A stretch of DNA of 59,694 nucleotides from Candidatus Zixiibacteriota bacterium (GTDB taxonomy: Bacteria > Zixibacteria > MSB-5A5 > DSPP01), in the NCBI GenBank assembly GCA_022614805.1, contig JAKEHY010000027.1, forward strand, positions 1-59,694, given 5' to 3'. The notes beneath the pieces were generated by a model that was not told the origin of the DNA, made no database searches, and saw nothing but the letters and a program-made list of their open reading frames with translations. Of the stretch, positions 13,984 to 59,202 are shown in pieces. The translations under genes were made by a program, and so were the position numbers. The first letter of the stretch is position 1. Every line of letters begins with the position of its first letter.

Positions 13984-14069
13984 GCCGGAGTGGTGAAACT
14001 GGTAGACGCGCGGGACTCAAAATCCCGTGGGGCCTAAACCCCGTGTCGGTTCGATTCCGACCTCCGGCA
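13984..14069 (+). tRNA. tRNA-Leu (anticodon CAA)
   Basis: The acceptor stem GCCGGAG/CTCCGGC, D-arm GGTAGACGCG, anticodon stem CGGGA/TCCCG with loop CTCAAAA (anticodon CAA), a long variable arm GGGG-CCTAAA-CCCC (class II tRNA) and TTCGATTC T-loop are all present. Discriminator A is at 14069; CCA is not encoded. It stands alone between hrcA and the sensor kinase operon and is on the opposite strand to both. Confidence 0.96.
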
Positions 14070-37302: not shown

Positions 37303-38295
37303 TTATTTTTTTTGATCCAGAAGTTTGCGCGTTTCCTCTTGAAGTTTTTCCTTGTCCAGAAAGGGGGCCTTCCCCTCCGCCGAGCTCAATTGATGCATCC
37401 AGAAGTCCGGCTTGGGAGGTCGCCTCTTCCATTTCGCTTTCGGCTGGTACAGAAGGTAAACGTCCCAAGCGATGCCCGAAAGTCCTAGAATCTTTTGCCA
37501 AGTTTTCGCCGCCAAAAGATTTTCATCCCATACATACGTTATTCTTTTTTCAGGGAACTCGCGGCTTCGTTCCCAAGCCGTCTTTGGGTTATCCACTGTG
37601 CGAATCGGTACCCAAATAACCGTTGCCCGCAATCTTTCGTCCGGAATCTCTTTCAGCACGTTCTGAACGGCGAGGAACCCCCGCCGGCAGGCAGTTCAAG
37701 TGGGTGATAAAAGGGCTATGAGCTGCACCGATCCGCTATTTCCTTCAAACTCCTCCTTCAAGTCATCCAGTTTCTCCGGAGCCAAGAGAAAGGCGTTCTC
37801 GGCGGGTGCCGTCAAAACGCCGAAGCCGGAGTACTTTTCCCCCTCAAATTCCAGCCATTCGATTTGGCCTTCCTTGTTTATCCAAAGCTGCAAATCACGG
37901 CTCCCTTTTTCAAACACCAGCGGCACCTGCACCTGCAACGGTTCAGCTGCTGAAATATCCGTGTATGAACGGATCTGGCCAAATCGAAGGGCAGGACCGT
38001 AAACGCTTCGGCTCTGTCTAAATTCAGTTCCGATAGCCGAAAGCGGGATGGCGGCTTTCAAGTTTTCCGAGAACCGCCCATAGAGTCTCATTGAATCGTT
38101 TTGGTTGTAGTCGTCCACAATTTGCTGGACGAACGACTTCAAGGTAACGATTAATTCCGCCTTTCTTTCGGGAAGACCGCTATCGGTTTGCGCGTTGAGC
38201 GGGCTGGACAAGGCGCAAAAAGCCGCCGCCAAGAAAAGAGTCCTATCAAATTTTAAACCGCAAAAACCAGGCCTTAGTTTAGGGCCTACAACCAT
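37303..38295 (-). CDS. Exported thioredoxin-like selenoprotein (in-frame UGA = Sec, UxxC)
   Basis: A conventional reading stops at a UGA (37698-37696) after 199 residues, but the frame continues for another 130. The join reads ALLSPT-U-TACRRGFLAVQ, so the UGA falls on the first redox position of a U-x-x-C motif (Sec200, Cys203). The downstream part (VIWVPIRTVDN, ITYVWDE, GIAWDVYLLYQPKAKW) follows a conserved thioredoxin-like family that has Cys in this place. A Sec signal peptide (LFLAAAFCALSSPLNAQ) and a 150-residue NTF2/DUF3887-like region precede it. A SECIS-like hairpin follows the UGA. UGA is an ordinary stop in neighbouring genes. The ATG at 38295 with GGAAAGAG upstream is preferred to TTG 38301. 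selA, selB, selC and selD are not in the window. The alternative is a nonsense mutation. Confidence 0.8.
37664..37698 (-). promoter_or_regulatory. Bacterial SECIS-like element at the UGA codon
   Basis: Counting the U of UGA as 1, GGCGGGG (14-20) pairs with CCUCGCC (24-30) in a 7-bp stem with one G-U and a GUU loop. The G at loop position 1 is 18 bases after the UGA. Outside it, UGAAC pairs with GUUCA. A G at the loop start, 16-37 bases from the UGA, is the published form of bacterial SECIS elements. Confidence 0.65.
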
Positions 38296-38297
38296 CT

Positions 38298-39464
38298 TCA
38301 ATCTCTTTCCACCAAAACCGCCATCCCCATCCCCCCCGAAACGCAGAGGGTGGCGATACCGCGCTTCGCGTTCCGCTTTTTCATGGCGTAAACGAGCGTG
38401 GTCAAAATCCGCGCTCCGGTGGCGCCGATGGGATGCCCCATGGCAATTGCTCCCCCGTTGACGTTAAGCTTCTGGCGGTCGAGTTTCAACTCCCGCTCGC
38501 AGGCAATCACCTGCGCCGCAAACGCCTCGTTTAGCTCAATCAAATCGATGTCGGAGAGCTTCCATTTGGTCTTTTCGAGAAGTTTTTGCACTGCCGGCAC
38601 CGGCCCGATTCCCATTATGGCCGGGTCCACGCCCACGGAGGTGAAATCTACAATTCGCGCCAGCGGTTCAAGCTTATATTTCTTTACTTTCGACTCTGCC
38701 ATCAAAACCACCGCCGCCGCTCCGTCCGTGATTCCGGAGGAATTTCCGGCGTGGACCGTTCCGTCCGGCTTGAAAACCGGCTTCAGCTTCGCGAGTGTTT
38801 CGACCGTGACGCCGGTGCGAAAATGCTCGTCTTTCTCAACTTGGACGCCCGCCGCCTCGACCGGCGCCACTTCATCCCGAAAGTCGCACCGGGCCCAGGC
38901 TTGCTCGGCCCGGTTCTGGCTCATCGTCGCGTATTCATCCTGCTCCCGCCGCGAAATTTTGTATTTAACGGCTAAAGTCTCTGCTGTTTCCCCCATCACC
39001 TGCTCGCAAAGCGGACACAAAAAACCGTCCTTGTACATCGCATCCACCAGTTCGGCCGACCCGAGCCGGTATCCCCAGCGGGCTTTAGGCAACAAAAATG
39101 GAACGTTGGACATACTCTCCGTCCCGCCGGTGAGAACGATTTGAGATTCGCCTAACAGTATGGATTGGTAGCCCGAAACGACTCCCCGCAGACCGGAAGC
39201 GCAGGCTTGATTAATGGTATAGGCCGCCTTTTCATCCGGCACGCCCGCCCGATGTGAAATTTGCCGGGCCACGTTGGGGCCGACCCCCGCCTGGCGGGCG
39301 CAGCCGTAAATCGTTTCGTCGATTAAATCGGGGGAAATTCCAGCGCGGGCAATGGCGGCGGATGCAGCTGCGGTTCCCAAATCCGCTGCCGTCAGGGAGG
39401 AAAGCCCCCCGCCGAATTTTCCAATCGGCGTGCGCACGGCGGAAACTATAAAGACCGGTTCCAA
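38298..39464 (-). CDS. Acetyl-CoA C-acetyltransferase (thiolase)
   Basis: The 388-residue thiolase has the nucleophilic Cys88 in NQACASGLRG, the substrate-binding NEAFAAQ, His in GGAIAMGHPIGATGARI and the second catalytic Cys in CVSGGMG. Length and motifs fit the biosynthetic/degradative acetoacetyl-CoA thiolase class. It cleaves 3-ketoacyl-CoA to acetyl-CoA at the end of the pathways encoded here, or condenses acetyl-CoA. It starts two bases after the aldehyde dehydrogenase stop and its own stop lies just ahead of the selenoprotein start. Confidence 0.93.
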   Translation of the reverse strand: MEPVFIVSAVRTPIGKFGGGLSSLTAADLGTAAASAAIARAGISPDLIDETIYGCARQAGVGPNVARQISHRAGVPDEKAAYTINQACASGLRGVVSGYQSILLGESQIVLTGGTESMSNVPFLLPKARWGYRLGSAELVDAMYKDGFLCPLCEQVMGETAETLAVKYKISRREQDEYATMSQNRAEQAWARCDFRDEVAPVEAAGVQVEKDEHFRTGVTVETLAKLKPVFKPDGTVHAGNSSGITDGAAAVVLMAESKVKKYKLEPLARIVDFTSVGVDPAIMGIGPVPAVQKLLEKTKWKLSDIDLIELNEAFAAQVIACERELKLDRQKLNVNGGAIAMGHPIGATGARILTTLVYAMKKRNAKRGIATLCVSGGMGMAVLVERD

Positions 39465-58058: not shown

Positions 58059-58072
58059 ACCCTGAAAAATCC

Positions 58073-58420
58073 AACCGGCCGGGTGGTAAGCCGGGTTCGG
58101 TTCTATGCCGTCATCCATCTGGGGTCTTTGTTGCCAAAGACCTCAAGCGGCCTACCCGCGGCAATGGGCGAAGCACCCGCCGCTGCGTGGCCTTGCTCCC
58201 AAGCGGGTTTTCCCTGCCGTCCCGATTACTCGGGGCGCGGTGAGCTCTTACCTCACCATTTCACCCTTACCCCGATTGCTCGAGGCGGTATATTTTCTGC
58301 GGCACTCTCCGTTTCGCCCGGCTTTCGCCAGACGAACCCCCGGCTAAGGGGACTTGGCTTCTCTGGAGCCCGGACTTTCCTCCCCCCGATTTTCGGGGAG
58401 CGACGGCTCACCCGGCCGGC
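58073..58420 (-). ncRNA. rnpB: RNase P RNA (type A)
   Basis: The catalytic RNA matures the 5' ends of tRNAs. Read on the minus strand, P1 (GCCGGCCGGGTG with CACCCGGCCGG at the other end), the conserved P4 half GAGGAAAGTCCGGGC, the GGGTAAGGGTGAAA-like core and the 3' conserved block ATAGAACC...AACCCGGCTTA are present in the right order over about 348 bases. The GGGTGCTTCGCCC and ACGGCAGGGAAAACC stretches agree with the bacterial type A fold. Its 5' end abuts the stop codon of lemA, so it may be processed from, or transcribed within, the lemA message. Confidence 0.95.
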
Positions 58421-59119: not shown

Positions 59120-59202
59120 GGAGAGGTACCCAAGCGGCCAACGGGAGCAGACTGTAAATCTGCCGGCTTACGCCTACGGAGGTTCGAATCCTCCCCTCTC
59201 CA
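59120..59202 (+). tRNA. tRNA-Tyr (anticodon GTA)
   Basis: The acceptor stem GGAGAGG/CCTCTCC, anticodon loop CTGTAAA (anticodon GTA), a long class II variable arm (CCGGCTTACGCCTACGG region) and T-loop TTCGAATC are present. Discriminator A is at 59202 and CCA is not encoded. The length and arm pattern fit bacterial tRNA-Tyr. Confidence 0.95.

Follow-up and report, generated by a model that had tools for sequence, protein, structure and literature searches.

A probable exported selenoprotein with a thioredoxin-like domain, encoded across an in-frame UGA in a Candidatus Zixiibacteriota genome

Introduction

How should the single in-frame TGA within an otherwise open gene of a Candidatus Zixiibacteriota bacterium be read? 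Standard annotation splits such genes or labels them pseudogenes, and a mechanical list of open reading frames (ORFs) divides this one in two, at 37696 to 38301 and 37303 to 37659. The gene lies in the window, by which we mean the whole stretch of DNA that was analysed (59,694 nucleotides); it is contig C27 of a genome of 2.56 Mb that is 93% complete. From the letters of the DNA, the two abutting same-frame ORFs, with only a UGA between them, had been predicted to encode one exported thioredoxin-like protein with selenocysteine (Sec) at the UGA. As a whole, the best explanation is that the gene encodes an exported selenoprotein in which the UGA at codon 200 is read as Sec, to which we assign a probability of about 0.93. 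This supports the interpretation given in the original prediction, which nevertheless missed both the DUF3887/NTF2-like N-terminal half of the protein and the mercury-operon context of its relatives.

Results

One frame with one TGA

When TGA is translated as a residue, a single frame of 330 codons runs from 38295 to 37303 on the minus strand. Its sole interruption is the TGA at codon 200, in the context LLSPT-U-TACRRGF, and a TAA terminates it. In this translation nothing but the UGA parts the two halves, and the codon at 37698-37696 fits the predicted position, the first of a U-T-A-C motif. The features of the gene are as follows.

37303 to 38295, minus strand: complete gene of the probable selenoprotein, 330 amino acids in the TGA-as-residue translation; ATG at 38295-38293, TAA at 37305-37303; homologues align over residues 58-330
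38188 to 38295, minus strand: probable signal peptide, residues 1-36; hydrophobic stretch ending SSPLNAQ, by eye
37858 to 38127, minus strand: DUF3887-like N-terminal region, residues 57-146, NTF2-like superfamily; Pfam E 1.6e-05, 25.9 bits
37306 to 37812, minus strand: C-terminal thioredoxin-like domain, residues 162-330; low-confidence model, fold matches and weak profile matches
37696 to 37698, minus strand: in-frame TGA, predicted selenocysteine 200 of U-T-A-C; from translation and an identical TGA column in ten genes of nine genomes, the window's included
37668 to 37686, minus strand: bacterial SECIS-type hairpin of 8 bp (one G.U) with loop GUU; apical-loop G at 37678, +18 from the UGA; geometry like that of selD

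Same-frame open stretches parted by one TGA, with at least 100 codons on each side, occur as twelve pairs in the window. The pair at 38295-37303 is the only one of the twelve that is not covered over at least half its length by a larger ORF in another frame. Elsewhere the window holds an ordinary RNase P class A RNA (58071-58419, minus strand) and two ordinary tRNA genes (13984-14069 and 59120-59202), all found with Rfam.

The TGA column in homologues

A search with the full-length protein found relatives in six of 58 related genomes, its own included, and a profile of the C-terminal domain found eleven genes in 10 of 132 genomes of the phylum. Ten of these eleven genes carry one in-frame TGA, and in all ten it falls on the same motif codon, LLSPT-U-x-x-C or a near variant. 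A search of genome contigs returned a single relative, and none was found in viral contigs or in plasmids. The original prediction had proposed looking for Cys or Sec at residue 200 of homologues, and both occur: beside the ten TGA codons, a homologue from a gammaproteobacterial metagenome-assembled genome (L007) has Cys in the motif GDT-C-GIC (CGIC), the only Cys homologue found. The eleventh gene of the phylum, in genome G019, has Ser (SPTSASS), so that the tally in the phylum is ten Sec to one Ser.

The genes selA, selB and selC were not found in the G019 assembly, and this block is either missing from the assembly or was lost recently. We considered the Ser form as evidence of loss of the machinery and rejected it: since the selD of that genome (L038) retains its in-frame UGA and hairpin, G019 is not a clean loss-of-machinery control.

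Two further observations concern individual family members. Genome G078 has two UGA-bearing genes of the family, L027 and L035; the latter is short, so that the DUF3887-like half would not fit, and its N-terminus is lipobox-like. The homologue of G023 (L046:5665-6557) has its N-terminal part split by a frame change relative to that of G046, which may be an error in sequencing or a true frameshift.

Selenocysteine machinery of the genome

All four of the genes that the original prediction had said to look for, selA, selB, selC and selD, are present in the genome. The tRNA-Sec gene (selC, anticodon tca), selA and selB stand together as one block on contig C12, and selD, matched with 351 bits, lies on contig C32. 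A Sec UGA inside selD, in the motif SGG-U-AGK, is well known. Here, too, selD (L037, G000:C32:18000-20500, about 863) has its own in-frame TGA in SGG-U-AGK and is thus a second selenoprotein gene in the window's genome. Its UGA is followed by an 8-bp hairpin whose loop, GGU, starts at +18 with the loop G at that position. SelD is an enzyme unrelated to the window protein, but the arrangement of a UGA, then a hairpin with a 3-nt loop and a G at +18 is the same, and selD served as an internal positive control, since it is a textbook case of a selenoprotein gene from this organism and its SECIS has matching geometry.

SelB scored above its curated cut-off in all nine UGA-bearing genomes. The tRNA-Sec was not found in two of these assemblies, G079 and G112, both of which are fragmented, and the aminotransferase-family search of the genomes was too broad to pinpoint SelA.

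The hairpin after the UGA

The GUU loop and the G at +18 of the predicted hairpin were borne out, but the stem has 8 bp with one G.U pair, not 7 bp. A hairpin stands in register in seven of the ten UGA genes, with 8 bp in the window gene and 7 bp in the six others. Of the remaining three, L002 has a GUU-loop hairpin at +21, following the insertion of one codon, the stem of L004 has 6 bp and closes the 6-nt loop CGGGUA, and L034 has a partial hairpin only. The hairpin is absent from the Ser (G019) and Cys (L007) forms. Within the stem, pairs vary yet stay paired, as G-C, A-U or G-U at two positions and as C-G or U-G at one.

Taken alone, the hairpin is weak evidence. A stem as long as that of the window gene arises at about 6% of background positions, and synonymous-shuffle tests of each gene gave modest results: the window gene had a p of about 0.01, some clear hairpins had values as high as 0.3, and L034 had 0.58. 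Because a single hairpin is not rare and the per-gene tests are modest, we place the weight on conservation across diverged genes. Among seven distant homologues, compared in pairs that are not independent, identical residues are encoded by identical codons in 66% of cases under the hairpin versus 35% elsewhere, and synonymous sites beneath the hairpin thus appear conserved.

Domains, fold and export

The N-terminus, read by eye, resembles a signal peptide, hydrophobic and ending LNAQ, and the window protein is on this reading probably exported. Several homologues have, again by eye, lipobox-like N-termini (LIGC, MCSC, LVAC). The region that follows matches DUF3887 (PF13026) at a score under the Pfam gathering cut-off of 31.8, and this model matches five of seven family members at E up to 1; DUF3887 is covered by PMC3924330, whose subject is the NTF2-like superfamily.

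For residues 162-330, no Pfam or NCBIfam model scored above cut-off and no PDB sequence family covers the domain; single homologues match PF08534 or PF13462 weakly. The best three PDB profile matches (3gyk, TlpA 1jfu and 2l5o) are weak, with E 0.08-0.4, and are thioredoxin folds aligned across the CxxC. An AlphaFold model of the C-terminal domain, built from a two-row alignment, has thioredoxin-like topology at low confidence (pLDDT 56, pTM 0.54). With this low-confidence model, the best Foldseek match was ResA 2f9s (E 8.8e-04), and VIA-align returned 50 rows of thioredoxin-fold proteins, with a best Z of 7.5 over 101 residues, where a Z under 8 may mean a shared arrangement only. The single-sequence model of the full-length protein (pLDDT 40) was uninformative. 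The predicted thioredoxin-like character thus draws support from the order of secondary structure, the fold matches of a low-confidence model and weak sequence matches that span the CxxC, and the nearest relatives of the domain would, at low confidence, be ResA, TlpA and DsbE. That the protein is an exported thioredoxin-like oxidoreductase we consider likely.

Discussion

A model for the window gene

We consider it very probable, judging from the DNA and its homologues, that the gene encodes a selenoprotein. In our model, the ribosome would decode the UGA at codon 200 as selenocysteine by means of SelB and Sec-tRNA(Sec), the latter made by SelA from the selenophosphate of SelD, and the hairpin immediately downstream would direct this decoding. 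The product would begin with a signal peptide, followed by an NTF2-like (DUF3887-type) half and, at the C-terminus, a thioredoxin-like domain in which the U-x-x-C pair forms the redox centre. Most likely it would be an extracytoplasmic thiol/selenol-disulfide oxidoreductase of the ResA/TlpA kind, with a U200-C203 selenenylsulfide forming while a substrate is reduced. In some relatives, this redox role may be tied to mercury-type metal resistance operons.

Genomic context and a possible metal link

A reading that keeps the selenoprotein but departs from a general redox role is that U200 and C203 serve to bind a soft metal, Hg(II) for instance, in periplasmic metal detoxification. We regard this as possible but tentative. 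In three relatives (G046, G023 and G079), the homologue lies downstream of genes for a MerR-type regulator, a MerT/HMA fusion and a DF-family (seleno)protein; one unassigned ORF intervenes before it in G046 and G023, and in G079 it begins before the DF gene has ended. A fourth relative, G113, has a cluster of a MerA-like reductase, a MerT/HMA fusion and a MerR-type regulator about 7 kb from the homologue, and a MerR-family regulator lies about 0.8 kb upstream of the Cys homologue, on the opposite strand. Against this, the MerR-type and MerT-type matches of these neighbours are below the curated NCBIfam cut-offs, and the window gene is flanked by a thiolase, whose stop lies 2 bases ahead of the ATG of the window gene, and by an aromatic amino acid lyase, within a series of genes for CoA and amino acid metabolism. 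None of the neighbours examined in the window places the gene in a mer-type operon, and the MerT-like gene of its genome is on a different contig. The conserved block itself, of MerR-type regulator, MerT/HMA fusion, DF-family (seleno)protein and UxxC selenoprotein, was observed at L043:731-2936, L041:5028-8717 and L046:5275-8975.

The operon context of the relatives suggests a role in handling soft metals, but as the role of the family this link is, in our judgement, doubtful. More speculative still is the fuller scenario of an uncatalogued family of exported NTF2-thioredoxin fusion selenoproteins, mostly with Sec in this phylum, which would ancestrally have been encoded at the end of MerR-MerT/HMA-DF operons, have detoxified mercury or soft metals in the periplasm and have been redeployed elsewhere later, as in the window.

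Other readings of the TGA

The three remaining readings deny that the codon encodes Sec, and each of them is very improbable. The first is that the gene is a decaying pseudogene or that the TGA is an error of assembly or sequencing. A stop in the middle of a frame is the usual mark of either, and the gene is lacking altogether in G001, a sibling genome of the same genus. However, this reading is contradicted because the TGA is conserved: it is identical in genes from nine separately assembled genomes, in homologues down to about 30% protein identity. Moreover, among close relatives the part downstream of the UGA has a dN of 0.03-0.04 and a dS of 0.33-0.68, giving a dN/dS of about 0.06-0.09, of the same order as for the part before the UGA, which indicates that it is under strong purifying selection as protein.

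That the frame simply runs on past the TGA would also fit a code in which this lineage reads UGA as an ordinary amino acid (Trp, for example), or low-level read-through without selenium, but UGA is the stop of 14 of the 38 ORFs that were counted as genes in the window, the thiolase directly upstream among them, as had been predicted for the neighbours; the homologue L007 has Cys, not Trp, at the column, and the genome has selA, selB, selC and selD and a SECIS-like hairpin. Nor is the UGA plausibly a genuine stop between two proteins of one operon: mechanical ORF calling does give two ORFs with possible GTG or TTG starts, but the first listed start after the UGA (GTG, 37659) would remove C203 and most of the following helix, conservation is unbroken across the TGA, and in L007 one ORF spans the position. 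On the conserved TGA, selection, the sel genes, the normal UGA stops and L007, we reject the pseudogene, error, code-change and two-protein readings, and return to the exported selenoprotein.

Relation to known proteins

The exported thioredoxins ResA, TlpA and DsbE (PDB 2f9s, 4txo, 3gl3; cd02966 group) have features that are also predicted for the window protein: the thioredoxin-like order of strands and helices, a CxxC (here UxxC) that opens the first helix after the central strand and an extracytoplasmic location. In contrast to them, the window protein would have Sec at the first position of the motif, lacks a significant Pfam or NCBIfam match, differs in its C-terminal part (with a conserved P-x-F-W-M-H-Q) and carries a fused NTF2-like N-terminal half.

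Of the same kind are the catalogued UxxC redoxin, Prx-like 3 and TlpA-type selenoproteins (PMC2398784, PMC9312934, PMC13188914), with UxxC in a thioredoxin-like fold, as predicted for the window protein, and a bacterial SECIS just downstream. These are tied to PF08534, PF00578 or cd02966, whereas single members of the window family match PF08534 or PF13462 weakly. The 2022 and 2026 catalogues hold 'Redoxin family' entries (PMC9312934, PMC13188914) and 'Prx-like 3' UxxC entries appear in the GOS list. No entry of the 2022 and 2026 catalogues could be matched by motif or domain, in a comparison by description under which identity with 'Redoxin family' or 'Prx-like 3' is possible, and a literature search on the motif letters returned no relevant paper. 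The DF family (seleno)protein NF049942 and the MerT/CopZ-type selenoproteins resemble some members of the window family in their metal-linked operons, as small Sec/Cys proteins beside MerT-like transporters, but they are not homologous to the window protein; they are neighbours in relatives and were not found beside the window gene. The kind is thus ordinary, a UxxC thioredoxin-like selenoprotein with a bacterial SECIS, and the family within it is probably new, set apart from catalogued entries by descriptions of motif and domain.

The window gene adds a probable selenoprotein family that has no Pfam or NCBIfam model. As the family is mostly Sec in this phylum, a search built on Cys/TGA pairs could overlook it. 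A part in soft-metal resistance is already suspected for several other selenoproteins (PMC13188914), and the operon context of the relatives offers a link between Sec and such resistance that can be tested.
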